From the IMG/VR virus record IMGVR_UViG_3300046492_000179, positions 1 to 39,284 of that record: a DNA stretch of 39,284 bases; one strand, given 5' to 3'. The position numbers and the translations under genes were made by a program. Each line of letters opens with the position of its first letter. Position 1 is the first letter of the stretch. The notes beneath the pieces were generated by a model. It ran no database searches. It had not been told where the DNA came from and saw nothing but the letters and a program-made list of their open reading frames with translations. Shown in pieces: positions 962 to 39,284 of the stretch. The stretch is from a virus.

Positions 962-2440
962 ATGAACGAGAACAACGAACAGCCGGGCATGGCCAGTGCC
1001 GCGCGCCATGGCGGCGATACGAGCGCAATCACGCGCTTTGACTACGACTACGCCGCCGGATTATTCGTCAACAGCGGTGGCGAGTTCGTCAAATTCGCTG
1101 ACGTTGAGCCATTTTTGCGCGCCACTAAGACAGAGAGTGGCGAGGCAGTATGGCAAGAGATGGGGTCTGCTCCGCAGGACGGCAGCGAAATTCTCATTCG
1201 TTTCCCGATGCAGGGTAACGTCAAAAGCCTCGCCAGCTTCAACACGGTGTATAAATACTGGTCGAGCAAGGGCGGCGCGATCTTCCCGGTCGAGCAGAAG
1301 TGCGAATGGACGCATTTGCCTTCCGATGAGGCTGCCGCCCCTGTCCCGCCACTACCCGCACCAGCCGCGCCAAAGGTCGCGCCTGACTTCGTGCCCGATA
1401 CCTCGCAGGAATGGGGCAAGCTGGACGGTGCCGTTGCATGGCACCTAATCGAGCGCCACGCTGACAGCTGGAATGAAGTTGGCAACATGATGGATTCGTG
1501 GCTTGCAGCCCGTGCCGCCGCTCAAGCCGCGCCAGCCACCCCGACCGGAATTCCGGCGATCCTGTTCGACGGCCATGCCGTCTACAAAGAGGTGATGGCG
1601 AACGATCCGAACACGCCGCGCCCGACCGCCGACAACGTCGCCAACGTGCTCGATGCTGTCGTGCGCCTGCTGCGCCGGGAAGCGCCAGCCACCCCGGCAC
1701 CAGCCGCCCCGCAAGCAGTACAGGCACAGCCCGAGCAGACTCAGCAGAGCCATGTAATGCCGCCCTTCGCGGCACCCGCTGGCCAACATGAATGGCACCG
1801 CGTCAGCGAGATCAAGCCGCCCGAAGGGGTCTCGGTTTTGGTTTATTACCCCGCCGATAAGGACGAGCCGTACCGGATTGACGAATGGGACACGCAAGAT
1901 AATCCCGAAAGCTTCGCAGCGGCCAACATGGAGGGCTGGCTGTCGTTCCCCAACGAAGGAATCACACACTGGGCGCACTTGTCGCCGCCGAACGAAGTCA
2001 GCGGCACCCCGGTTCCGCGCGTGGGCGGAAATACGAACGACAGCCGCGCCGATTTGACCGCCCCGAGCAGCACCGAGGCACGCGCTACCGCAGACGAGGA
2101 TGCGCGGGATGCGGAACGGTTCCGTAAAGTCGTGCGCCTGATCGGATACGCCGAGACTGGCACTGCTGAGGGGCCGGTGTGGACGCTGGACTTGCCCCGC
2201 CCTTCCCGCTGGGGCAACACGGACGAGAACTTCGTGGCCGCAATCGACGCTTTGCGCACCACCAGCACCAGCCAGGCACCGGCAAGCGGCACGGAAGGCG
2301 CGATGGTTTGCGCGACATGCGGCGCTGACCGTTCGAAAGAGAAATGCAAGGCCGAACACTGGCAGAAATGCCCGATGGTTGGCGTGGCAGGCGGCACTGC
2401 TGGCACACCGGATGCGGAAGGGGCGCAGCAGCATGGCTAA
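962..2440 (+). CDS. mosaic phage protein with two DUF551-like modules (492 aa)
   Basis: Large accessory protein built of short modules joined by Ala/Pro-rich linkers. Module 1 (about 60-120) reads EMGSAPQDGSEILIRFP and ends near EWTHLP. Module 3 (about 277-345) reads WHRVSEIKPPEGVSVLVYYP and ends near ITHWAHLSPP. Both have the DUF551 layout: an opening Trp or Met, an alternating strand, and a closing H-W or W-x-H-L-P. Between them is a WHLIERHADSW...SWLAARAA module. The C-terminus has DAERFRKVVRLIG and a Cys cluster (CATCGADRSKEKC) that could bind zinc. Good RBS (GGGAGAAC) before the ATG. Role unknown; such mosaics are typical of phage accessory regions. Confidence 0.8.
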   Translation: MNENNEQPGMASAARHGGDTSAITRFDYDYAAGLFVNSGGEFVKFADVEPFLRATKTESGEAVWQEMGSAPQDGSEILIRFPMQGNVKSLASFNTVYKYWSSKGGAIFPVEQKCEWTHLPSDEAAAPVPPLPAPAAPKVAPDFVPDTSQEWGKLDGAVAWHLIERHADSWNEVGNMMDSWLAARAAAQAAPATPTGIPAILFDGHAVYKEVMANDPNTPRPTADNVANVLDAVVRLLRREAPATPAPAAPQAVQAQPEQTQQSHVMPPFAAPAGQHEWHRVSEIKPPEGVSVLVYYPADKDEPYRIDEWDTQDNPESFAAANMEGWLSFPNEGITHWAHLSPPNEVSGTPVPRVGGNTNDSRADLTAPSSTEARATADEDARDAERFRKVVRLIGYAETGTAEGPVWTLDLPRPSRWGNTDENFVAAIDALRTTSTSQAPASGTEGAMVCATCGADRSKEKCKAEHWQKCPMVGVAGGTAGTPDAEGAQQHG

Positions 2441-3335
2441 GCCGCGCCTGAAAGTCAGCTTCAGCGGCGGCAAGACCAGCGGCTACATGGCGAAGCGCAT
2501 CAAGGACGAATGGTCAGACCTGTACGAAATCGTGTTTGTGTTCGCCAACACCGGGCGCGAGGATGAAAAGACCTTGGAATTCGTGGATCGGTGCGACAAG
2601 GAATGGGGCCTTGGCGTCGTATGGCTGGAGGCGCAGGTATTTCACGACGAGGAACGGTCGGCGGGGCATCGCGTGGTCAGCTTCGAGACCGCTTCGCGCA
2701 ACGGCGAGCCGTTCGAGGAAGTGATTAAGAAGTACGGCATTTCCAATTACCAGTTCGAGCCATGCAACCGGGAATTGAAGCTCAACGCCATGAACTCATA
2801 CATGCGCTCGATTGGCTGGGATGACTACCACACGGCCATCGGCATCCGCATCGACGAAAGCCGCAGGGTGTCGGCGCGGGCGGGCCTGAACCAGATTCTG
2901 TATCCACTGGTTGATGTGTGGCCGAGCGACAAGCAAGACGTGGCCGACTTTTGGGAGGCGCAGCCGTTCCAGCTTGGTCTGGATGAGCATTTCGGGAACT
3001 GCGTTACCTGCTTCAAGAAATCCGACCGCAAGCTGTTCAAGGTGTACGCCGAGCGCCCCGAAGCCTTCGAGTGGAATGCCGCGATGGAACGCCAATACGG
3101 CTGGCACGGCGCGCCGCATTACGGCCAGTCGACCGAAGATGGCAAGCCGCGCGTCTGGTTCCGTAGTAACCGCTCGACCGAACAACTGCTAGCGCAGGCC
3201 CGCGAAGCTGGCGTTACGCCTTACATCCCGATCAGGGAAACGCGCTCGCACGCCGCGCGCCAGTTCGGGCTTGACTTTGAATCCGGTGGATGCAGCGAAA
3301 GCTGCGAAGCCTACCCAATGGAGAATGCAGCATGA
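2433..3335 (+). CDS. PP-loop ATP pyrophosphatase, PAPS reductase family (300 aa)
   Basis: Member of the adenine-nucleotide alpha-hydrolase/PAPS reductase superfamily. These enzymes adenylate or reduce a substrate using a pyrophosphate-binding loop. The loop is SFSGGKTSGYM (residues 9-19), followed by FANTGREDEKTLEFV (37-51), as in the family. Cysteine pairs NCVTC (190/193) and GGCSESC (287/291), plus EPCNREL (109-115), could hold a metal or Fe-S cluster. True assimilatory sulfate reduction is unlikely in a phage; related proteins act in tRNA thiolation or DNA phosphorothioation (DndC). No dnd genes are nearby, so the substrate is unknown. The start at 2433 overlaps the previous stop by 8 bp. 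Confidence 0.85.
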   Translation: MAKPRLKVSFSGGKTSGYMAKRIKDEWSDLYEIVFVFANTGREDEKTLEFVDRCDKEWGLGVVWLEAQVFHDEERSAGHRVVSFETASRNGEPFEEVIKKYGISNYQFEPCNRELKLNAMNSYMRSIGWDDYHTAIGIRIDESRRVSARAGLNQILYPLVDVWPSDKQDVADFWEAQPFQLGLDEHFGNCVTCFKKSDRKLFKVYAERPEAFEWNAAMERQYGWHGAPHYGQSTEDGKPRVWFRSNRSTEQLLAQAREAGVTPYIPIRETRSHAARQFGLDFESGGCSESCEAYPMENAA

Positions 3336-3628
3336 CCACCAACACCAAGCGCGGCACCGATGCCGCCCCTACTGCCAGCGCACCTGCAGTGCATCCTGTT
3401 CAGCGCAAGCGCGACTATGACCAAGCATACGCCCCGCAAGTCGTGACGATGCGCGCTTACGCGGTCTACTGCCACGTGTACGCCCCACAAGAAGCGATGG
3501 TCACCGGCGGCTGCCGTGGCGGCTTTTCCGCGGGCGAACTGATCGCCTTCCTGTACGCCTACAGCTTTCCCATGGCCGAGTGGCGCGCCCGCGTCGATGA
3601 AGCTTTCCGTGGCATGAAAGGACTCTGA
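3332..3628 (+). CDS. hypothetical phage protein (98 aa)
   Basis: Unknown protein with a disordered N-terminus containing DAAPTASAP, a segment shared at DNA level with the next gene. A compact C-terminal part (about 35-98) is rich in aromatic residues (YAVYCHVYAPQ; GELIAFLYAYSFPMAEWRARV). The C-terminal helix with AEWRARVDEAF resembles the W-x-A-R-type ends seen in other proteins of this operon. The ATG overlaps the upstream stop (ATGA). No function proposed. Confidence 0.7.
   Translation: MTTNTKRGTDAAPTASAPAVHPVQRKRDYDQAYAPQVVTMRAYAVYCHVYAPQEAMVTGGCRGGFSAGELIAFLYAYSFPMAEWRARVDEAFRGMKGL
3358..3384. repeat. 27-bp direct repeat, copy 1
   Basis: A 27-bp stretch beginning CGATGCCGCCCC is repeated perfectly at 3655-3681. 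Each copy lies near the 5' end of its gene and is read in the same frame as DAAPTASAP. Confidence 0.9.
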
Positions 3629-3631
3629 ACC

Positions 3632-4333
3632 ATGAACGACAAGAACAACGATTTCGATGCCGCCCCTACTGCCAGCGCACCGAGCGGCGAATCTATCGAA
3701 GCGCGCACCGAGCGAATCCGGTTGTCCCATGAGAACGCCGACAGCAAAGGCAAAATCCAACTGCGCCATGAAGTCGAGTGCTTGCTGGCGCACATCGCCT
3801 TGCTCAAATCCGAGCAGCGCGCCCCCGCTATCGGACAGCAGGCGGATCGCGACGAGGACGAGAGCGCAGAGAATTCCTGGCGGCGCTTGGCACTCCAGTT
3901 TGACGGGCACCGCATGCAGGCGCTGGCGCACATTCGGGCGCTGCTGGCAGACTACGCTAAGCACGCCCCGGTAGCATCAGAATTCCTGAGCCTGCCGCCA
4001 CTGAGCGGCGAGGCGGTACTTGTCCAACGAATCTCAGCTATCTCCCACCTCTCCGCAACTAACAGCGGCACCGAAAGCGTGGATACGGACGACTGTGCCG
4101 CATTCTCCGACGCAGTGTTATTCGGCACCGAACCAGCACCGCAAGCTGCGCCCGACGATTTGCTGGGCCTGTTGCGCGAGTTCGTCAGCTACACCTCCGA
4201 CAGCGCCGGCATGTCGGTGGATATCGTGCAGAACGAAGCGAAGTTTGCCGCGTTCATGGACGAGTTGCGCCGGCGCCACGACTCCCTCATCAGCCGTGCG
4301 ACGGCCGCCATCGCCCAGCGAGGTGCTGCATGA
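3632..4333 (+). CDS. hypothetical phage protein (233 aa)
   Basis: Unknown protein. Residues 8-16 repeat the DAAPTASAP linker of the gene before it. A charged helical segment (about 25-75, with LRHEVECLLAHIALLKSEQ) could form a coiled coil. The C-terminal part (about 165-233) contains LLGLLREFVSYTSDSAGM and DELRRRHDSLISRATAAIAQ. An AAAGGA-type RBS precedes the ATG. The stop overlaps the next ATG (ATGA). No catalytic motif recognised. Confidence 0.75.
   Translation: MNDKNNDFDAAPTASAPSGESIEARTERIRLSHENADSKGKIQLRHEVECLLAHIALLKSEQRAPAIGQQADRDEDESAENSWRRLALQFDGHRMQALAHIRALLADYAKHAPVASEFLSLPPLSGEAVLVQRISAISHLSATNSGTESVDTDDCAAFSDAVLFGTEPAPQAAPDDLLGLLREFVSYTSDSAGMSVDIVQNEAKFAAFMDELRRRHDSLISRATAAIAQRGAA
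3655..3681. repeat. 27-bp direct repeat, copy 2
   Basis: Perfect second copy of the 27-bp element at 3358-3384. The offset of 297 bp equals the length of one intervening gene (99 codons), so recombination between the copies would delete that gene and leave an in-frame chimera. Confidence 0.9.
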
Positions 4334-4971
4334 GCGCGCACATCCCGACATGGCAGGAGCGCCGACAAGCTGGGAGTTCGACCGAGCGTGCGATGCTGGA
4401 CCATATTGCCGACCTGCGCGCCCGCATCGCTGAACTGGAAGCGGCCCAGCCTGTTGCATGGGGTGTCGTGCGGAAAGACGGCAAGTTGGTGCATACGGCG
4501 CTGTTCAAGGGCAACTCGGAAAGCTATCTCAGGCACGCCAACGAGAATTGGCTGGAGCACGGCGAAGGCTGCCGCATGGTCGGGCTCACCATTGTTGACG
4601 CCATCCAGCCCACCGGACAGGCGGCCACCACGGCAAGCGCGAGCTACGAATGCAAGTGCGGTAAGGAGTTGAACGTTTGCCTTGCCACGTCTTGCGAACA
4701 TTTCGACCTCGCCCATGACCTGCTCGGCAAAGACGCCATGCTCCTGTGGAAAGAACGCGCGCTGAAAGCAGAGGCAGCCCAGGCAGCGCATGCTGGCGCA
4801 GAGGAAGCGATTTTGACGAGCGCGCAACAGCGGATGTGGACAGCACTCGACCGGAAAGCCTGCCCCGGTGTTTGGATGCAAATTGCCTCCGACGCCGTGC
4901 TCGGCTTCAAAAAAGACAGCTACGGCGATGTCATCCCCGCCGCCCCAGCTACCGAGAAAGGAAAGCCATGA
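4330..4971 (+). CDS. hypothetical phage protein (213 aa)
   Basis: Unknown protein. An N-terminal helix ([20 protein letters not shown], about 21-40) looks like a short coiled coil. It is followed by a compact beta-rich module ([18 protein letters not shown]) resembling substrate-binding or DUF551-like modules of phage accessory proteins. A Cys-rich knuckle ([17 protein letters not shown], about 106-122) could bind zinc. The C-terminal helix carries [16 protein letters not shown]. Both ends overlap neighbours by 4 bp, showing tight operon packing. Confidence 0.75.
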
Positions 4972-6029
4972 GCAACGAACTGAACCTCGACCAGCTGGAA
5001 GCGCTGGCAAAAGCGGCATCTGAAGCATCCTTAGGAGTTACTGACCGAATCGAGGACTTCATACGAGCCGCTACCCCTGACACCGTGCTCGAACTGATCG
5101 CCATGGCACGCCGCGCCGCGCCTGCTGCCGCTATGGGTGCGGAAGGCGAGGAAGGACTGCCGCCGCTGCCGCGTCCGGCCAAGCATGGCGACCTGCCAAA
5201 GCCGTGGGCATACTACACCGCCGAGCAGATGCGCCAAGCCCAGCGCGAGGCCATCGCAGCAGATCGCGCCCAGCTGCCGGCCGAGCAGCAGGCGCACGTA
5301 GCGCCGCCTGCTGCGGCACCGGCAGGCCAACAGACTCAGCCGCTTTGTGATTCCGCCCTGCGCGCGGAACCGGCGGGCCAACAACATGCCGACTCCGAGG
5401 TTAATCGCGGGCTGAACGATCCACTTTATCGCCAAGCCGTGATGATCGTGCGGGCGAATAACCGCGCGTCTATCTCCCTAGTGCAAAGGCACTTGGCTAT
5501 CGGCTACAACCGTGCTGCGCGACTTCTTGAGGCGATGGAAGCGTGCAGCGTGGTATCGAAGGAAGGCCCAGCCGGCGCGCGGTCAGTTCTTGCCGCTGCG
5601 CTCGATCAATCCGAGGCTGCCCGGTCCCGCGCGGAGGGCGGGAATACGAGCAACGAAGCGGCCACCTACATGACGAACGCGCAAGCAGAGAATTGGGCGT
5701 GGGAGCAGGTCAAGGAACAGGTCGGCACTGACGGATGGACAGTCAGCGATAGCTGTACCTACTACGGCTTCTTCCTATGGGGCTGGCGCTATCGCACGCA
5801 ATACGAACGGCAGCGCAACGTGGTTGCACTTGAGATCAAAGGGCAATCGCTCGCCCCATCAGCCGCACAGGAAGGCAAGCCCTCCAGCATCGTCCTGCCG
5901 ACCACCTTGCAGCGCGACGACACTGAGCATGACGTGGACTACTACCGGGCCGACGAGGTGCATGCAGCAATTGCCGCCGCACAGGAAGGCAAGCAGGCCA
6001 GCGCGCCAGGACAAGGAGAGAGCAAATGA
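4968..6029 (+). CDS. phage protein with stand-alone FtsK gamma domain (353 aa)
   Basis: Residues ~150-210 match the FtsK gamma winged-helix domain, which reads KOPS sequences and steers the FtsK translocase. Diagnostic segments are [32 protein letters not shown] and [11 protein letters not shown], very close to bacterial FtsK C-termini. No ATPase (RecA-like alpha/beta) motor is present. The domain is instead embedded between an N-terminal helical part (4-105, with [20 protein letters not shown]) and a C-terminal aromatic module (about 232-285, [12 protein letters not shown] and [13 protein letters not shown]). It should bind DNA, but whether at KOPS or phage sites is unknown. The ATG overlaps the upstream stop. 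Confidence 0.85.
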
Positions 6030-6466
6030 GCACCCGCGACGACAACCAAGCACCATTCGATTGGGCACCTCCAGTAGCTTACGACACGCCACGCGCCACC
6101 CCGCCAGCGCCCAGCACCGCCGAGGTGGACGAGCGCTACGAGTTCGAGCGGCATATGTCGAACCGTGGCGAAGCCGTCAACTACATCGGTGATGGGCTGT
6201 ACTCATCCGGCTTCGTGCAAGACCAATGGGACGCATGGTGCGCCCGCGCCGCTCTCGCAGCCAAGCCAGCCGCCAGCGCGGAACCGGGCCGGGGAGTGGG
6301 TGAGGCGGCGCGGGATGCTGCACGACTCGACAAGTTCATCGACTGGTATCTGCGCGACGGCAAGCGGTCGGAGATCAACCCTGACGGACACATTACGGTC
6401 ACGACCCGCGCGCACATTCTTGCATGGCTCGACCGCGCGCCAGCAGGCGGGAAGGACAGCGCATGA
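6026..6466 (+). CDS. hypothetical phage protein (146 aa)
   Basis: Two short modules joined by an Ala/Pro/Gly linker. Residues ~33-77 contain [15 protein letters not shown] and [13 protein letters not shown], the W-x-A-W-x-A-R-A type module common in phage accessory proteins. Residues ~95-135 contain [17 protein letters not shown] and [11 protein letters not shown], similar in style to the C-terminus of the protein at 962-2440. Function unknown. Start and stop both overlap neighbours (ATGA). Confidence 0.75.
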
Positions 6467-6597
6467 ACCGCGCCCCGATCCTGCGCCGTGGCGAGCGCCG
6501 CGCCTTCCACAAGTGGCGCTGGTTCAAGGAGCGCAGAAGCGGCTTTGACCGGCGCCAGCGGGCCGTGCTACCCGGCTGGGCGGATGCCGTTCAGTAG
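6463..6597 (+). CDS. tiny basic protein with RRSGFDRR motif (44 aa)
   Basis: Very basic peptide. The ATG overlaps the previous stop (ATGA) and the frame is open to TAG at 6595. It contains KERRSGFDRRQ, a short Arg-rich motif of the R-R-S-G-x-D-R-R type seen in small phage and bacterial proteins. Its last 30 bp overlap the end of the convergent minus-strand gene, so the plus-strand accessory operon and the late operon collide here; no terminator hairpin is evident between them. Nucleic-acid binding is plausible from the charge only. Confidence 0.55.
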   Translation: MNRAPILRRGERRAFHKWRWFKERRSGFDRRQRAVLPGWADAVQ

Positions 6598-6762
6598 CTG
6601 GTCGCGCTCGGCCTCGTAGCTTTGGGCGCAGGACGTCGCGCACCACAAGGCACCCTTGCCGAGCGGCTCGGCGCAGTAGTGGCAGGCCCGTTTCGGCAGC
6701 AGCGGGGCATGGGCCAGGATCGCGGCCCGGCGCTCGGCGTCGATCTGGGCTAGGGTTTTCAT
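6568..6762 (-). CDS. small Cys-rich putative zinc-binding protein (64 aa)
   Basis: Last gene of the leftward late operon. CHYCAEPLGKGALWCATSC (residues 27-45) has the CxxC...CxxxC spacing of a treble-clef or zinc-ribbon finger. The flanks are helical and charged (QIDAERRAAILAHA; SYEAERDQLL). The ATG overlaps the stop of the upstream gene (ATGA). The 3' end overlaps the convergent gene. Function unknown. Confidence 0.7.
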   Translation of the reverse strand: MKTLAQIDAERRAAILAHAPLLPKRACHYCAEPLGKGALWCATSCAQSYEAERDQLLNGIRPAG

Positions 6763-7283
6763 TTGGCCGGCACCGATTGCGCGAGCAGGTCATTCTTTCG
6801 CCCGCTTTCATGCGTGCTGCCGAAAAAGAAATTGACCACCGCGCCCCATGCGGCGCCGAGCGCGCCCAGCATCAGCAGCAGCGCCTGGTTGTCGGCCGCC
6901 TTCATCACGCCGCACAGCATGCCCGCCAGCACGCCGAAGAAGCCGCAGGTGATCATGATCGCCAGGATCGCGGGAATCCGGCTGCGGGTGGCGCTTTGCA
7001 TCGCGCGCGCGTCCTTGGTGTTGTCGACCGCCAGCGCGGCCAGATGCTCGATGTTGGCATACCCGAGTTCCTGCATCTTGACGGCGAATGCCTGATCCGC
7101 GTTTTTCAGCGCCAGCATCTGTTCCGGCGACACGCCCGCCAAGGCTTGCTTGATGCTCGCTTCGGTCTTGTCGCTCAGCCCGAGCGCATTGGCCAGCGCG
7201 CCGACTGCGGCCCCGCCCAGCGGCCCGGTCAATGCGGTGCCGATCCATGGTGCCACGGTGCCTACCAGTGCTTTCCAGTCCAT
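6759..7283 (-). CDS. holin-like protein, 3TM GTA-type (174 aa)
   Basis: The N-terminal Gly/Ala-rich helix (GPLGGAAVGALANALG) and the amphipathic stretch DKTEASIKQALAGVSPEQML are followed by two strong hydrophobic segments, IPAILAIMITCGFFGVLAGML and ALLLMLGALGAAWGAVVNFFF, with a polar tail. This is the layout of the 'holin of 3TMs, for gene-transfer release' family. It would form membrane lesions that let the lysozyme out. Strong RBS AGGAG before the ATG at 7283. It sits directly after the lysozyme gene. A second holin candidate lies at 7703-7951, so one of the two could be an antiholin. Confidence 0.7.
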   Translation of the reverse strand: MDWKALVGTVAPWIGTALTGPLGGAAVGALANALGLSDKTEASIKQALAGVSPEQMLALKNADQAFAVKMQELGYANIEHLAALAVDNTKDARAMQSATRSRIPAILAIMITCGFFGVLAGMLCGVMKAADNQALLLMLGALGAAWGAVVNFFFGSTHESGRKNDLLAQSVPAK

Positions 7284-30535: not shown

Positions 30536-31243
30536 TTAGGCGGCGTCTAGTAAATCGGCTTGCGTGTATTGTTTTTTCCAAAAGGGGGAGCATTGAATTG
30601 CATCCCACCTGTCGGCCATTTCGCGCGGTGTTTTTGTACGGCTGCTGTGATTGCGTGCAATGTCGGTGCTATCGACGCTGGAAAACGGATAGCCCCAGCG
30701 CGCGGCGTTCATCCCGCGCAGCATGTGCAGCCAAGCTGGTACGCGCCCGGTCTGACAAATCGCGTTCATGGCCTCGGTCATGCGGTGATGCCAGTTCATC
30801 GCCCCGACGACTTGGAATTGCGCCGACGAGCCAATGCAAACCCGCTCCCACTCGTCACATAGCCTCTTGAGGCGGTCGATTGGCTCGTGCATGTGCCATA
30901 CCGGCGCGCCGCGCTGCCCGTGCGGCCATTGCGCAATTAAGATGTCGTTCTGCGCGGCGTCTCCCATAATCACATCGGGGATCACCGCCCAAGTGGTACG
31001 CCAAGCCAGCCACTTTTCGCAGAACTCGTAGAACTCGTGCCAGTTGCTGCGCGGGGCCTTGCCTTCCTTCATGGCGCGCATCCAGTCGGTAAAAGCGCCG
31101 TTATCCACCATATTCCCTTGGCCGTGGTCGTGGCACCACTGGATATCGTCGGGACGCTCCCACGAAACACAGAAGAACCGCCCCGCCAGCTCAGACAGAG
31201 CCTTGCGCGGCGTGATCGGCGTTCCGTGGTAGTGGATGGTCAT
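30536..31243 (-). CDS. TGT/DpdA-like nucleoside transglycosylase-fold protein (235 aa)
   Basis: Reads as a TIM-barrel of the tRNA-guanine transglycosylase superfamily, to which DpdA (inserts 7-deazaguanines into DNA) belongs. Candidate catalytic parts in family order are VDNGAF with D47 (compare DSGG/DSGAF), VIPDVIMGD (D90), APVWHMHE at the place of the base-binding Gln motif, VCIGSSAQF (G138), LHMLRGMN (H173) and SSVDSTD with D191, the expected nucleophile place. The base exchanged and whether the target is DNA or tRNA are unknown. No preQ0 synthesis genes are in the window, so it would depend on host precursor. The start at 31243 overlaps the upstream stop. Confidence 0.6.
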   Translation of the reverse strand: MTIHYHGTPITPRKALSELAGRFFCVSWERPDDIQWCHDHGQGNMVDNGAFTDWMRAMKEGKAPRSNWHEFYEFCEKWLAWRTTWAVIPDVIMGDAAQNDILIAQWPHGQRGAPVWHMHEPIDRLKRLCDEWERVCIGSSAQFQVVGAMNWHHRMTEAMNAICQTGRVPAWLHMLRGMNAARWGYPFSSVDSTDIARNHSSRTKTPREMADRWDAIQCSPFWKKQYTQADLLDAA

Positions 31244-31491
31244 GCTTCGACGCAGCGGTGCGTTTCGATATCGACGCCGTGATGGTGCGCCTTGAGCATT
31301 ACCTGCGTGCCGGGGAATTGCCTGGCGAGGTCGTCGGTCAGGGGTTCTTGGAATTCCTGCGCATAGATCGCCACCGCAGCGATGATCTTTTCGACGTAGA
31401 TCATTTTGGGGGACCGAATCTCTAATTGGCAAATGATCGGCTGCTTGTTGTTCGGGCATGCACAGACAAATTGATGACGATAAATATTCAT
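31240..31491 (-). CDS. hypothetical protein with AHHHGVDIE motif (83 aa)
   Basis: Small protein with two Cys near the start (FVCACPNNKQPIICQLEI), a helix (YVEKIIAAVAIYAQEFQEPL) and a striking C-terminal VMLKAHHHGVDIETHR. The three His and Asp/Glu could bind metal. It is translationally coupled to the TGT/DpdA-like gene (ATGA), so a joint role is possible. No family recognised with confidence. Confidence 0.7.
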   Translation of the reverse strand: MNIYRHQFVCACPNNKQPIICQLEIRSPKMIYVEKIIAAVAIYAQEFQEPLTDDLARQFPGTQVMLKAHHHGVDIETHRCVEA

Positions 31492-31634
31492 TCTTCTTCT
31501 CCCTTGTTGTGGTGGTAGGTGAAAATCAGCATCAGCAGCAGCCCCAGCGCGCACAGCGCCAGCCCGAAGGCCGGATCCACCACCAGTTCGGCGCTGAGGA
31601 TGGCAAGGGCGAGCAGGAGCAGGGCGTTACTCAT
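31488..31634 (-). CDS. small two-span membrane protein (48 aa)
   Basis: Two hydrophobic segments, ALLLLALAILSAELVV and GLALCALGLLLMLIFTYH, and a short charged tail (HNKGEEE). Start and stop overlap neighbours. Function unknown. Confidence 0.6.
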   Translation of the reverse strand: MSNALLLLALAILSAELVVDPAFGLALCALGLLLMLIFTYHHNKGEEE

Positions 31635-31816
31635 GGCTTGGCCTTGTCGACCAGGCCGAGCGCCTGCTTGGCGAACGTCACTTGAATCGCCATCAGTTCG
31701 GGGTCGCGGTGCTGTTCGCGTAGCATGATGCGCTTGGCCCATGCCAGATGATCGTGCCCGCGCGTGGTGTTGTACGGGTGCGTTGCCGCTGCCAGGCGTC
31801 GCCAGTCGCTCATCAT
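31631..31816 (-). CDS. hypothetical small phage protein (61 aa)
   Basis: Contains WRRLAAATHPYNTTRGHDHL and ELMAIQVTFAKQALGLVDKA. Two adjacent ATG codons (31816, 31813) are possible starts; I chose the first because it overlaps the upstream stop (ATGA). Unknown function, encoded directly after the helicase-loader candidate. Confidence 0.6.
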   Translation of the reverse strand: MMSDWRRLAAATHPYNTTRGHDHLAWAKRIMLREQHRDPELMAIQVTFAKQALGLVDKAKP

Positions 31817-32466
31817 TCCCCCATCTTCAAGGTCAGCAGCAGGGCCTTGAGGCGCTGCACGTTCTCGGGCTTCGGCGGGGCCAGCAGCGGATGCTTGGTC
31901 ACGCCGCACATGCGCACGATGTCGGGGCCGTACTCGGGCAGCGCAGCGGTCGCGGCGTCCAGCGTGATCTGGCCCTTCTGCACCGCGTTGCCGAGCATAG
32001 TCACGCGCCCCAGCGGATCGCCGCCGAACGACGGGAAGTAGCGCGGGGCGCGGCCTTCGACCTTGGCCTTCTCGACCAGCCGGTTGTAGGCGTCCTTGAA
32101 GGCCATCCGCGCCGCCACCTTGTCGCCATCCTCCAGCAGCGTCGAGGCAGCGGCCATCGCCTGCGCGATTTCGTCGGTCAGCATGGCCGAATCGCTCTCG
32201 GACTTGGGCATCAGCGACCACGCCTCGTCGGCACCGAGCCACTGCCCTTCGATCTGCGCTTCGCAGCCGCGCACGATGTCGGCCAGATGCGGCTTGAAGT
32301 GGCTGGTTTTCAGGTGGCGGGCGGCAGATGCCCTGACCGTCCCGGCCGGGAAGTGGCGCAGCGCCTCCCACCACATTTCCAGCCTGGGGCCGTCGACCGG
32401 CTGCATGTCGTCGTATTCGGCGCACAGCAGGGCGATGGCTTCGCTGAGTTCTTGTCGGGTCGTCAT
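31813..32466 (-). CDS. putative helicase loader / replisome organiser (217 aa)
   Basis: The N-terminal ~65 residues (LSEAIALLCAEYDDMQPVDG; MWWEALRHFPAGTVRASAAR; HFKPHLADIVRGC) follow the pattern of phage helicase-loader domains of the G39P type: helix, W-x-x-x-L, then a 'phase' helix before F-x-P-x-x-x-D/E-I. The C-terminal half is helical and unassigned. It lies immediately after the DUF1376 initiator-like gene, the usual place for a loader. Function is inferred from pattern and context. Confidence 0.55.
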   Translation of the reverse strand: MTTRQELSEAIALLCAEYDDMQPVDGPRLEMWWEALRHFPAGTVRASAARHLKTSHFKPHLADIVRGCEAQIEGQWLGADEAWSLMPKSESDSAMLTDEIAQAMAAASTLLEDGDKVAARMAFKDAYNRLVEKAKVEGRAPRYFPSFGGDPLGRVTMLGNAVQKGQITLDAATAALPEYGPDIVRMCGVTKHPLLAPPKPENVQRLKALLLTLKMGE

Positions 32467-33314
32467 TCCTGTTCCATCCATTCTTTGAGCACGTCGATCT
32501 GGCGCTGCAAGCCGGGGTTCACCACCGCCGCCGGGCTGGCGAGCTTGGCGAACTTGTCCACGTTGGCAGCCGTCCGGCAAATCAGTTCGATGTCGTCATA
32601 CACGGTGCGGCTGTCGTTCTGGCCCATGTGGTGCGCCGACTTGGCGATGCCGTCCACGGCGCGGCACAAGTCCTCGGCGCTGTAGCCGTCCTTCAGCCGG
32701 GCGCGGATGGCCTTGGACCGCTTGTCGTCCAGCTTGGCGCGATCATGGCCGCGCTTGGTTTGCCAGTAGGAGAAAACCGTTTTGACCTGCGAGCGAACAA
32801 CCGACGTCTCGCCGTCAGGCGGGACAGTGGTTTTGACTTTCTCTCTTGGTTCTTGGTTAGTGGTTAGTGGTTTATGGTTAGGTTGACCGGACGTGCTCAG
32901 CTCGTGCGTTTCTGGTCCACCATTCGTGCACGACTCGTGCTCTGAACGTGCTACGGTTCGTCTGTCGGTCGTGCCACGGTCGTGCTCGCGCCGATCTTTT
33001 TTTGCCTGCTCTCTGGCAATGGCAATCTTCCGATTCACTTCTGCCTTACCGTGGTAGATCGCAAGTTCTTCCTCGATCCGGTTCTGCTGGTAGCGTTCGT
33101 CCTCCAGCACGAAAAATTCATCCAGCACCGCCAGGACCGCCGATTTTTCCTCCTCGGTACGGGCGCGCGCCCAACGCATCGCCTCCAACAATGTGGGGGC
33201 CTGCTCGCGGTCGTAGTAACTGTCGATGATCAGGTTATAGACGCCGTGCTCCAGCGGGGACAGATGCCCAGCCTTCTTGGCGTAGTCCCCAATGTGGCGT
33301 TTGTAGTAGTGCAT
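32463..33314 (-). CDS. replication initiator-like protein, DUF1376 (283 aa)
   Basis: The N-terminal ~90 residues match DUF1376 of YdaU-type phage replication proteins (MHYYKRHIGDYAKKAGHLSP; EHGVYNLIIDSYYDREQAP; DEFFVLEDERYQQNRIEEEL). A long disordered, charged linker (about 105-165) is encoded by the iteron/heptamer DNA described separately. The C-terminal ~90 residues (VKTVFSYWQTKRGHDRAKLD; RSKAIRARLKDGYSAEDLC) are a conserved replication-protein domain. It probably binds the origin in its own gene and recruits helicase via the next gene, as lambda O/P do. The RBS is weak. Confidence 0.8.
   Translation of the reverse strand: MHYYKRHIGDYAKKAGHLSPLEHGVYNLIIDSYYDREQAPTLLEAMRWARARTEEEKSAVLAVLDEFFVLEDERYQQNRIEEELAIYHGKAEVNRKIAIAREQAKKDRREHDRGTTDRRTVARSEHESCTNGGPETHELSTSGQPNHKPLTTNQEPREKVKTTVPPDGETSVVRSQVKTVFSYWQTKRGHDRAKLDDKRSKAIRARLKDGYSAEDLCRAVDGIAKSAHHMGQNDSRTVYDDIELICRTAANVDKFAKLASPAAVVNPGLQRQIDVLKEWMEQE
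32848..32882. repeat. five tandem heptamers, AT-rich side of probable origin
   Basis: Five contiguous 7-bp units on the plus strand: GGTTCTT, GGTTAGT, GGTTAGT, GGTTTAT, GGTTAGG. They lie in the lowest-GC part of the replication gene and directly abut the 11-bp iterons. This is the arrangement of a DNA-unwinding element. Confidence 0.8.
32891..32985. other. phased CGTGC iterons, probable replication origin
   Basis: Seven copies of CGTGC, usually preceded by T or A, start at 32892, 32903, 32925, 32936, 32947, 32970 and 32981. The steps are 11, 22, 11, 11, 23 and 11 bp, so all sit on about the same helix face. The two gaps hold degenerate units. The array lies within the linker part of the DUF1376 gene, as the lambda origin lies within gene O. 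Confidence 0.75.
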
Positions 33315-33328
33315 TGCTCAAAGCACTT

Positions 33329-33442
33329 TCAGAAGAAGCCGGTTAGTAAGACCGGCAGAACGAATACCCGAATGGAGGCACAGGCATACGCCCATGTCGC
33401 TTCTGGAAATGCTTTGGTAAGGTCATCATTTACGCCGTCCAT
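33329..33442 (-). CDS. possible micro-gene in early leader (37 aa)
   Basis: Open frame in the early leader between the predicted promoter and the DUF1376 gene. It starts MDGVNDDLTKAFPEATWAYA and ends in a hydrophobic stretch (VFVLPVLLTGFF). No clear RBS precedes the ATG. It ends 14 bp before the next start, so it might be a leader peptide. Weakly supported. Confidence 0.3.
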   Translation of the reverse strand: MDGVNDDLTKAFPEATWAYACASIRVFVLPVLLTGFF

Positions 33443-33475
33443 TTGTAGGTGTCGGATTACTAGCCCGACAAATCA

Positions 33476-33504
33476 ATTGTGCGCTGGAAATTGATCTTAG
33501 ACAA
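33476..33504 (-). promoter_or_regulatory. predicted early leftward promoter
   Basis: On the minus strand, TTGTCT (33504-33499) and CACAAT (33481-33476) have a 17-bp spacer. The -35 box lies inside the palindrome 33491-33504, so a bound regulator would block or alter transcription of the replication operon. Confidence 0.5.
33491..33504. promoter_or_regulatory. 14-bp palindromic operator-like site 1
   Basis: TTGATCTTAGACAA. It shares the TTGATCT left arm with sites 2 and 3 and is close to the palindrome TTGATCTAGATCAA. It overlaps the predicted leftward promoter. Confidence 0.65.
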
Positions 33505-33512
33505 ATATCCGA

Positions 33513-33526
33513 TTGATCTAAATCAG
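33513..33526. promoter_or_regulatory. 14-bp palindromic operator-like site 2
   Basis: TTGATCTAAATCAG, one base from the FNR/ANR consensus TTGATnnnnATCAA. Its right arm is also half of a perfect 8-bp inverted repeat, TAAATCAG/CTGATTTA (33519-33536). Confidence 0.7.
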
Positions 33527-33540
33527 AACTGATTTATAGT
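33513..33540 (+). promoter_or_regulatory. possible rightward promoter in control region
   Basis: TTGATC (33513-33518) and TATAGT (33535-33540) with a 16-bp spacer on the plus strand. Sites 2 and 3 overlap or abut it. No plus-strand gene lies downstream for 3.2 kb, so it would give RNA antisense to the regulatory operon, or it may be a chance match. Confidence 0.35.
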
Positions 33541-33554
33541 TTGATCTATGTCAA
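33541..33554. promoter_or_regulatory. 14-bp palindromic operator-like site 3
   Basis: TTGATCTATGTCAA, one base from TTGATnnnnATCAA. Centre-to-centre distances are 22 bp between sites 1 and 2 and 28 bp between sites 2 and 3. Confidence 0.7.
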
Positions 33555-33573
33555 TACGCCCCGCGCAGGCAAC

Positions 33574-33594
33574 AAAAAACCCGCGCGAGGCGGG
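33574..33594 (-). terminator. rho-independent terminator of regulatory operon
   Basis: On the minus strand, CCCGC (33594-33590), a 5-nt loop, GCGGG (33584-33580) and TTTTTT (33579-33574). A second perfect hairpin, GTTCCCG/CGGGAAC (33601-33620), lies just before it at the end of the HTH gene. Together they stop leftward transcription before the control region. Confidence 0.8.
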
Positions 33595-33619
33595 CCGGGC
33601 GTTCCCGTGTGCGCGGGAA

Positions 33620-34048
33620 CTACACATGCTGGCGCTGGCGCCCCTTGCGGATGTGGCAAATCAGCGTGGCGTCCACCCCCAGGCGGCGCGCGGCGTCGCA
33701 ATTGCGCTCGGACGAATGCTTGACCTCCAGCACTTGCGCGTCGGTCAGCTTGCCACGGCGCGGCGCGAATTCATCGCGGATCAATGCCATCGCGGTGGGG
33801 CCATCGAACTCGATGCCGGCCAGCTTGCGCAGCTGCGCCATGGTCCAGCCGGTGCGGTCGAGAATCTGCACGATCACCCGCGCGCCGAGCGGCTGGGTGC
33901 GGCTCTGGATGCGGGTCAGGTTGCCGGGGCTGATTTCGAGCAGCCGGGCCAGCTGGTGGTCGTTGGCCGCGCCCAGTGCCTGCGCCGTCGCATGCAGCAG
34001 CCGCACCGGGGTGTAGGCCGGGTCGCTCAGGTCGGGGAAGTCCATCAT
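33620..34048 (-). CDS. HTH DNA-binding protein, putative phage regulator (142 aa)
   Basis: Two helix-turn-helix-like segments are seen: NDHQLARLLEISPGNLTRIQ (about 29-48), as in Cro/C1-type proteins, and SSERNCDAARRLGVDATLIC (about 112-131). The first is followed by ARVIVQILDRTGWTMAQLRK. This could be the repressor or an activator of the nearby control region. It is the last gene of its operon, ended by two hairpins. Two adjacent ATG codons are possible starts; 34048 has a GAGGA upstream. Confidence 0.65.
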   Translation of the reverse strand: MMDFPDLSDPAYTPVRLLHATAQALGAANDHQLARLLEISPGNLTRIQSRTQPLGARVIVQILDRTGWTMAQLRKLAGIEFDGPTAMALIRDEFAPRRGKLTDAQVLEVKHSSERNCDAARRLGVDATLICHIRKGRQRQHV

Positions 34049-38233: not shown

Positions 38234-38736
38234 GCACAAATCTGTCGCTGTACCTGATCGCCGCCGAGTTCCGCCAGATGGTCGAGCGCCTGACCGATTG
38301 CCAGGACGACGCCGCCGCGATTGCCGATACCATCGAAGCGGAATCCTATCCGCTCGAAGTCAAGGCGCAGAACGTCGCGTATGCGATCCGCAACTTGGAA
38401 GCATCGGCCGCCGCCATCAAGGAAGCCGAAGCGCAGATGGCCGAGCGCCGCAAGCGCATCGAAAAGCGCGCCGAGCAGGTCAAAGAGTACCTGAAAACCT
38501 GCATGGAGGTGGCGGGCGTGTCCAAGATCGAGTGCCCGCACTTCTCGCTGGCCATCGCCAAGAACCCGGCCGGGGTCGAGGTGTTCGAACCGGGCCTGGT
38601 CCCTGCCGACTTCATGCGCCAGCCGGAAACGCCGCCGCCCGCGCCCGACAAGGCCAAGATCAAGGAAGCGCTGAAGGCCGGGCAGGAAGTGCCGGGCTGC
38701 CTGCTGACGGCTGGCACGCGGCTGGCGATCAAGTGA
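38230..38736 (+). CDS. Gp157 family phage protein (168 aa)
   Basis: Matches the siphovirus Gp157 family, proteins of unknown biochemical role often placed beside ERF/RecT genes and in one streptococcal case linked to phage resistance. Typical parts are NLSLYLIAAEFRQMVERL, IEAESYPLEVKAQNVAYAIR (about 35-54), EAEAQMAERRKRIEKRAEQV (a coiled coil, about 65-84), YLKTCMEVAGVSKIECPHFS and the near-terminal GTRLAIK. The C-terminal third contains PPPAPDKAKIKEALKAGQEV. Both ends overlap neighbours. Confidence 0.88.
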   Translation: MSTNLSLYLIAAEFRQMVERLTDCQDDAAAIADTIEAESYPLEVKAQNVAYAIRNLEASAAAIKEAEAQMAERRKRIEKRAEQVKEYLKTCMEVAGVSKIECPHFSLAIAKNPAGVEVFEPGLVPADFMRQPETPPPAPDKAKIKEALKAGQEVPGCLLTAGTRLAIK

Positions 38737-39146
38737 GCAAGAAAACCTTCGTGCTCGCGCATCCAACCGCACGCGCCAATGCGGCGGCCTACTGCGGCCA
38801 GGCACCGGATGGCTGGATGGTGGTGTTTTCAGAGCCAACCAAGAAGCGCATTCAGGAAGAGAAATACCACGCGATGATTGGCGAGATCGCGGCGCAAGTT
38901 GAGCACATCGGCCGCAAGTGGGACTTGGACGACATGAAGCGCCTGCTGATCGACGAGTTCGCGGACGAAATGCGGCTGGCCGGCACGCCCTTGCACCACG
39001 ACGGGCGCGTGATCCCCAGCTTCGACGGGCGCCGCATCGTCCAGCTGGGCATCCAGTCGCGCGACTTCTACGTGAAAGAGGCGGCGCAGTTCATTGAATT
39101 TTTGTATGCCTTCGGCGCGGCGCGCGGCGTCGTGTTCAAAGAATAA
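38733..39146 (+). CDS. ninB: NinB-like recombination protein (137 aa)
   Basis: Relative of lambda NinB (Orf), which binds ssDNA and helps load recombinase. Family features are KKRIQEEKYHAMIGEIAAQV (37-56), KWDLDDMKRLLIDEFADEMR (62-81), RVIPSFDGRRIVQLGIQSRD (92-111) and EAAQFIEFLYAFGAARGVVF. The length is close to lambda NinB (146 aa). The start is GTG at 38733, overlapping the upstream stop (GTGA). Confidence 0.9.
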   Translation: MSKKTFVLAHPTARANAAAYCGQAPDGWMVVFSEPTKKRIQEEKYHAMIGEIAAQVEHIGRKWDLDDMKRLLIDEFADEMRLAGTPLHHDGRVIPSFDGRRIVQLGIQSRDFYVKEAAQFIEFLYAFGAARGVVFKE

Positions 39147-39165
39147 CCACAAGGGGAACAACAAC

Positions 39166-39284
39166 ATGGCAATACCAGAAAAACACCGGCCCACGGCGCA
39201 TGCGTTTGTCGATGGCGCGCAAATCCAGGCGCGTCAAGTCGGCCAGCAAAACGAGTACGACTGGATGGACCTTACCAGCGACCC
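39166..39284 (+). CDS. partial hypothetical gene at window end
   Basis: Only the first 39 codons are present (MAIPEKHRPTAHAFVDGAQI, ending near WMDLTSD). A GGGGAAC RBS precedes the ATG. The start resembles short phage proteins of the EYDWMD type, of unknown function. Joining the window end to position 1 keeps the frame open but runs out of frame through the first gene, so the gene probably continues in sequence that is not shown. Confidence 0.6.
   Translation, partial: MAIPEKHRPTAHAFVDGAQIQARQVGQQNEYDWMDLTSD

Follow-up and report, generated by a model that had tools for sequence, protein, structure and literature searches.

A PP-loop gene lies at positions 2433–3335 (+ strand) of the viral record IMGVR_UViG_3300046492_000179, all 39,284 nucleotides of which were analysed here (the window). 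The PHROG family to which it belongs, phrog_424, is annotated as 'phosphoadenosine phosphosulfate reductase'. Phage cysH genes have been interpreted in terms of sulfate assimilation, as in the available part of PMC10914622, where 167 viral cysH genes were counted as evidence for a virus-driven process. Does the protein of the window act in sulfate assimilation, as its database name says, or does it transfer sulfur to another acceptor?

The gene is a member of the lambda NinC family

The frame is translated into 300 amino acids followed by a stop codon. It is a real gene and a member of a known phage family that includes NinC of phage lambda, as observed with Pfam, PHROG, tblastn and an alignment to lambda NinC. 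The phrog_424 profile matched the protein over its full length (residues 8–294) with 185 bits (E 5e-54). Pfam PF01507 matched with 23.7 bits (cut-off 22.5), and no other PF01507 match was present in the window; the sole other Pfam match of the protein, CoA_binding_2, was sub-threshold. A tblastn search with the protein found 472 phage records, 365 of them covering at least 80% of it, all at less than 60% identity. Lambda NinC (Orf290) is 28% identical and could be aligned over the full length, tail included. The motif set of the phrog_424/NinC family, namely SGGx[TS]S, NTGxE, CxxxLK, GIRxDE, GNCxxC and a tail with two cysteines, is present in the window protein, and lambda NinC has the motifs of the latter, including CSESC. 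What is new here is the reclassification of the gene; the family itself was already known.

A second NinC branch, with the tail motif CxC, was found in bacterial genomes. By our own reading of the neighbours (RecT-like, ArdC-like), the second-branch loci L157, L154, L150 and L168 resemble prophages or integrative elements. Six alphaproteobacterial genes of this branch (L145, L150, L152, L153, L155 and L171), which make up one NinC cluster, are located at most 226 bp downstream of one conserved frame that we read as an ArdC-like antirestriction protein. A Bordetella locus (L095) carries one NinC-like gene of each branch (4174–5121 and 5989–6840) on the same strand, about 0.9 kb apart.

The cysteines are conserved throughout the family

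A preliminary description of this DNA had reported an SGGKTS loop, an NTGRE motif and the cysteine pairs C190/C193 and C287/C291, all of which are present in the translation. The PP-loop, SFSGGKTS, occupies residues 9–16 (2457–2480, +) and NTGRE residues 39–43. These are followed by C111 of the CNRELK motif (2763–2765, +), GIRIDE at residues 137–142 (2841–2858, +), C190xxC193 of GNCxxC (3000–3011, +) and the C-terminal pair C287xxxC291 within CSESC (3291–3305, +).

Conservation was counted over 161 distinct sequences of at least 240 amino acids; the 172 relatives were reduced to 167 by dropping five shorter sequences, and to 161 by dropping six duplicates. G137, R139, D141 and E142 were each found in 161/161. 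Among the cysteines, C190 and C193 were conserved in 161/161, C111 in 159/161, C291 in 158/161, C287 in 150/161 and C54 in 143/161. The search patterns of the two large scans contained GNCxxC and the loop, so these columns were partly fixed by the search, one pattern being sufficient per locus; C111 and the tail were outside all patterns of these two scans. The CxC branch has GNCxxCFLK, which is outside the search pattern, yet both cysteines are kept. C111, C190, C193 and C291 were also invariant in an alignment of 12 sequences that included lambda and further named phages, five rows of which came from a search whose patterns included the C54, C111 and C291 stretches. The spacing of the tail pair varied: CxxxC in 100/161, CxC in 44/161 and CxxC in 1/161. 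The regular expression found no pair in the other 16; among these, each of the 12 inspected carries two tail cysteines that are spaced differently.

Judged from these alignments, the cysteines are a signature of the family. They had been described as 'extra' pairs; the whole lambda NinC family has them, and C111 and C54 exist besides. The proposal that the pairs hold a metal cluster held up in part. A metal- or sulfur-handling role is plausible, because the three core positions, C111 and C190/C193, have counterparts in the CC...CxxC of APS reductases and among the SspD and DndC cysteines (C111 matching the first Cys of the APS-reductase CC and the WCT of SspD/DndC), but the conserved third position, C111, had been missed. 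The argument that the enzyme is probably active as its loop and NTGRE motif are intact was weakened, since the Asp of SGGxDS is replaced family-wide by Thr or Ser (T 141, S 19 and D 0 among 160 aligned sequences). This replacement is a real difference, and it may alter the ATP chemistry.

The fold of the protein was predicted with a pLDDT of 89.7 and a pTM of 0.85. The C-terminal cysteine tail was modelled at a pLDDT below 50, so its nearness to the other cysteines is not established by the model.

Sequence places NinC with SspD, PptA and DndC and outside CysH

In the fold comparison, the CysH/APS reductases ranked first (VIA Z 11.0–11.6), followed near Z 10 by GMP synthetase, NcsA and LarE; NcsA, LarE and TtuA all scored within 9.0–10.3. 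SspD and DndC were absent among the fold matches listed, an absence that excludes nothing. The fold does not decide the CysH question; the sequence does, and by sequence criteria the window protein is not a CysH. The C-terminal catalytic motif ECG[LIV]H was found in 11/11 CysH sequences versus 0/167 relatives, the window protein included. The loop SGGx[TS]S was present in 162/167 relatives and even the wider SGGx[DTS]S in 0/11 CysH. The Asp of SGGxDS separated the family also from SspD/DndC, where it occurs in 12/12 sequences versus 0/167 NinC relatives.

When profiles were compared by hhalign, the NinC profile matched SspD at 99.2% (E 5.8e-20), PptA at 98.5% (E 2.2e-15), DndC at 91.3% (E 9.6e-7) and CysH at 37.1% (E 3.6e-4), the profiles being built from 5, 3, 7 and 9 sequences, respectively, with that of CysH the most diverse. 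Two of the 11 CysH sequences (L208 and L210) were left out of the CysH profile and of the second tree, and in alignment A2 12 further rows were omitted to thin near-copies (151 rows versus 138). In the first tree, NinC (100/96) and CysH (100/97) formed separate groups; long branches were flagged in it, and the bootstrap had not converged. In the second tree, to which PptA was added and which was rooted on CysH, PptA joined NinC (95/80), followed by SspD and then DndC; NinC alone had only 74/70, and the PptA–NinC join is on long branches.

The PADLOC SspD model matched 137/138 family members at E ≤0.001, and BrxP matched 35/138. SspD was the best PADLOC match of lambda NinC and of three PptA-group proteins; BrxP was that of two true CysH, and E. 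coli CysH also matched SspD at E 0.006. The window protein scored 44.8 bits against the SspD model, where five full-length SspD proteins score 398–459. In NCBIfam, it matched three PAPS-reductase-like hypothetical models, and no CysH or DndC (TIGR03183) model appeared up to E 10, a range in which the HMMER filters drop most weak matches. No tRNA-thiolase family (MnmA, TtcA, TtuA, NcsA) matched it in Pfam or NCBIfam. Across the 138 relatives, with a limit of E 0.1, the hypothetical models PRK13795 and PRK08557, both PAPS-reductase-like, matched 125 and 124, TilS 37, DndC 36 (best 1.2e-5), APS reductase 16 and LarE 9; PRK02090 reductase matched 56 (best 1e-6), MnmA 2 and TIGR00434 cysH 3 (best 1.9e-4).

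The preliminary description had argued that sulfate assimilation makes little sense for a phage and had suggested placing the protein in a phylogeny with CysH. Motif, profile and tree all agree that it is not CysH, and in both trees NinC fell outside the CysH clade. Its preference for a thiolation-type role is favoured by the kinship with SspD and PptA.

A phage relative shares a PDB entry with IscS

In the PDB, the family profile matched 21fy_C, 'PptA', best (E 2.3e-6). The remaining five matches up to E 1 were GMP synthase (0.016), CysH (0.04), U34-tRNA thiolase chains (0.15 and 0.19) and APS reductase (0.34); the window protein as a single query had no PDB match. Across the 197 residues compared, PptA and a Vibrio phage vB_VhaP_VH-5 protein share 93.8% identity. 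A search with the E. coli IscS sequence returned 21fy among the entries with an identical sequence, so PptA and a cysteine desulfurase are in one entry. The RNA polymerase of phage VH-5 had been considered as the partner in 21fy and was rejected, as this entry was not among its PDB matches; IscS then matched. Three PptA-group proteins share CT..LK, NCxGC and a tail CxxxC with the NinC family. The window protein has neither their SCGAxSA loop nor close similarity to PptA, which is a sister at 95/80. Our literature search found no paper on PptA.

Genomic context

The record is a P22-like phage, with portal, terminase, scaffold and head proteins and P22-like portal relatives. NinG, Erf-like, Gam-like and NinB genes are present in the window, and no tRNA gene was found in it. 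Upstream of the NinC-like gene is a frame of 492 amino acids (962–2440, +) that overlaps it by 8 nt and, within the limits applied, matched nothing in PHROG, Pfam or PADLOC. Downstream is a frame of 98 amino acids (3332–3628, +), whose ATG overlaps the stop of the NinC-like gene (ATGA). A perfect 27-bp direct repeat (3358–3384 and 3655–3681) occurs near the starts of the two successive frames downstream of the gene. Further on, 4968–6029 (+) encodes an FtsK gamma domain (PF09397, 74 bits), which in our judgement is unexpected in a phage early region.

A NinB/Orf homologue (PF05772; 38727–39146, +) is on the same strand as the NinC-like gene at the opposite end of the permuted record. In a relative (record G347), whose NinG is 85% identical to that of the window, the sequence of the right end of the window (38734–39190) and that of the left end (2–659) stand in this order, 1.1 kb apart. 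This order indicates that the window ends are close together in the genome, with NinB and the NinC-like gene in one region. The window is therefore a permuted genome, which perhaps lacks about 1 kb or differs there. A search of 12 related records gave NinC-like matches in 3 and none in G347. Window positions 1544–5975 had no blastn match of at least 150 bp in G347. For the upstream frame a counterpart exists there (42% protein identity), for the NinC-like gene none, which makes the gene accessory.

Linkage to the Nin region was rejected as a rule, NinB being present in only 7/45 NinC-bearing records. A DNA-methyltransferase neighbourhood was also rejected, as there was no enrichment in phages. 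A C5 methyltransferase had seemed the commonest neighbour (28 loci). Within 4 kb it occurred at 8/83 viral NinC loci versus 8/80 Erf, 3/23 NinG and 3/8 primosomal-protein controls; it was present at 18/80 genome NinC loci, within 500 bp in 13 of these. N4/N6 methyltransferases were found at 9/83 viral and 9/80 genome NinC loci versus 1/80, 1/23 and 1/8 in the respective controls, numbers too thin to use. A frame that we read as polymerase-like was near 13/83 viral and 2/80 genome NinC loci versus 0/111 controls, an excess that may reflect control phages of another type. Paired NinC paralogues forming a heterodimer were rejected as a rule, a second NinC-like frame being found in only 1/83 viral and 4/80 genome loci, one of the latter (L143) an apparently split gene; phage chi has a second gene with the same annotation. 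The gene context thus indicated no substrate.

The window also encodes a TGT-like protein (30536–31459, −), which had been put forward as a second potential base-modification enzyme. The match to phrog_887 stands (175 bits), but no Pfam family was found at E 0.01. The gene forms a discrete insert, about 0.97 kb long and edged on both sides by TCTCCCT, and a relative that is 97% identical over 31498–33624 (L318) is without it. phrog_887 occurred in 3 of 44 NinC-bearing records (two strong matches, one weak), a subset of chosen longer contigs and six named phages that has no baseline for co-occurrence. A NinC/TGT-like system was rejected, and the co-occurrence looks incidental, the insertion being absent from a near relative.

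Proposed function and alternatives

We propose, with a probability of about 0.5, that the protein is a NinC-family PP-loop sulfurtransferase that is fed by the host IscS and acts on nucleic acid (DNA or RNA). The tail pair C287/C291 would take persulfide sulfur from IscS. C111, C190 and C193 are candidate ligands that would hold a [4Fe-4S] or similar site, and ATP bound at SGGKTS would activate the acceptor. Sulfur would then pass from the desulfurase to the tail persulfide, to the cluster site and to the ATP-activated acceptor. No PF00266 desulfurase was found in the window, so the sulfur donor would be the host's. For the acceptor we suggest, more weakly and from kinship alone, a nucleic acid: in the first place the DNA backbone, which would carry phosphorothioate as it does with SspD and DndC, and after that RNA. 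A PADLOC scan of 10 window proteins gave no match to a phosphorothioation partner or to SspA, SspB or SspC, in a record that may be incomplete. Points that weigh against the proposal are the top rank of CysH/APS reductases by fold, the CysH and the APS reductase among the PDB matches of the family profile, the loop Asp missing from all 167 relatives, this lack of a partner and a gene context that indicates no substrate. The accessory position on the strand of NinB and the absence from a near relative would fit a protective or host-interaction role.

IscS feeds tRNA thiolation, and a sub-case of our proposal is a TtuA/NcsA-like thiolation of tRNA or other RNA, for translation efficiency or for evading a tRNA-targeting defence. 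Among the fold matches are NcsA, LarE and TtuA (VIA Z 9.0–10.3), PP-loop enzymes that transfer sulfur and whose solved structures contain Fe–S clusters. However, the profile kinship is with DNA-sulfur enzymes, and the window protein had no tRNA-thiolase model, with MnmA and LarE reaching only 2/138 and 9/138 relatives at E 0.1; we consider this sub-case unlikely. The PDB entry shared by the phage relative PptA and IscS could also be read as a sign of an effector that binds IscS and, during infection, redirects or halts the sulfur traffic of the host, modifying nothing. The degenerate SCGAxSA loop of the PptA group and the loss of the SGGxDS Asp in the NinC family would agree with this. In our judgement, SGG..S, NTGxE, GxRxDE and five cysteines are conserved beyond the seeming need of a pure binder, which makes such an effector rather improbable.

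Further down we place the database name taken literally, a genuine PAPS/APS reductase, the product of an auxiliary metabolic gene that would raise sulfate assimilation in the host. This reading draws on the PF01507 score above the cut-off, the first rank of CysH/APS reductases in the fold comparison, PRK02090, which touches 56/138 relatives at E 0.1 (best 1e-6), and the printed reading of phage cysH (PMC10914622, in part). Against it are ECG[LIV]H in none of 167 relatives and all 11 CysH, the loop (SGGx[TS]S in 162/167 relatives, SGGx[DTS]S in no CysH), the tree split (100/97) and the cysH model TIGR00434, which reached only 3/138 relatives at E 0.1 (best E 2e-4); such a reductase is very unlikely. 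An action on a free nucleotide or small molecule in place of a polymer would be suggested by phage chi, where the gene adjoins a nucleoside 2-deoxyribosyltransferase and a thymidylate-synthase-complementing protein is encoded less than 2 kb away. This arrangement was seen in chi only, and no such family occurred among the window neighbours scanned, so there is little to recommend this reading either.

Implications for lambda ninC and viral cysH genes

Sulfurtransfer by NinC proteins could be extended into a more general idea, which we regard as doubtful: NinC, that of lambda included, would be a stand-alone, IscS-fed enzyme that thiolates phage DNA or a specific host RNA without Dnd or Ssp helpers, and many a 'viral cysH' would be this enzyme. 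If this is true, thiolation has been overlooked in lambda itself, and many 'viral cysH' genes are not for sulfate assimilation. If NinC is a sulfurtransferase, those counted cysH genes that fall within the NinC family say nothing on sulfate, and lambda ninC gains a concrete, testable role.

According to the available part of PMC10695390, lambda ninC was essential in a first CRISPRi assay and non-essential with plasmid pQ and in earlier work; the nin5 deletion removes it (PMC3349717, in part). The accessible text on the lambda two-hybrid map gives no ninC interactions (PMC3224144), and PMC11437467, in the portion available, states that phage PAPS-reductase homologues, lambda's among them, may act beyond sulfur metabolism. 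Our literature search, in which subscription journals and preprints were mostly or wholly uncovered, found no paper testing NinC function.

Comparison with known systems

DndC is a [4Fe-4S] protein in print, and its FRWCT..[LM]K, GxRxxES and GCxxC resemble the window protein; it differs in its size (about 500 amino acids), its SGGKDS loop, its other partners and in having no cysteines aligned to the NinC tail pair. The centre of DndC is held by three cysteines, with a separate dyad as the presumed sulfur acceptor (PMC10853773, part of the text), and the NinC-like tally is the same, three core cysteines (C111, C190 and C193) and a tail pair. The parallel with the dyad is loose, because the dyad is called unique to DndC (PMC12839542, in part) and the NinC tail has no DndC cysteines opposite it in the alignment. 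CysH and APS reductases have the PP-loop fold in common with NinC, and in the alignment C111 falls on the CC..RKxEPL of APS reductases and C190/C193 on their GCxPC, but these enzymes have ECGLH, another loop type and a separate clade. PptA (Vibrio phage, PDB 21fy) is likewise a phage gene product and has in addition a G[FM]TxEE motif like that of NinC, but it has the degenerate loop SCGAxSA and no NTG motif and is very divergent.

In lambda, ninB adjoins ninC, which overlaps the ninB end, whereas in the window the two genes are on the same strand with at least 2.5 kb of other frames between them across the ends. C111, GNCxxC and CSESC are common to lambda NinC and the window protein. SspD, which serves the phosphorothioation of single-strand DNA, resembles the window protein in WCT..LK, [GA]xRADE, GCxFC, the tail CxxC and a similar size, and the C..CxxC..tail cysteine pattern of SspD is found in the window protein. 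It differs by its SGGKDS loop and by belonging to sspABCD. In the available part of PMC7188994, a complex of SspD with the desulfurase SspA is described, and IscS can take the place of DndA.
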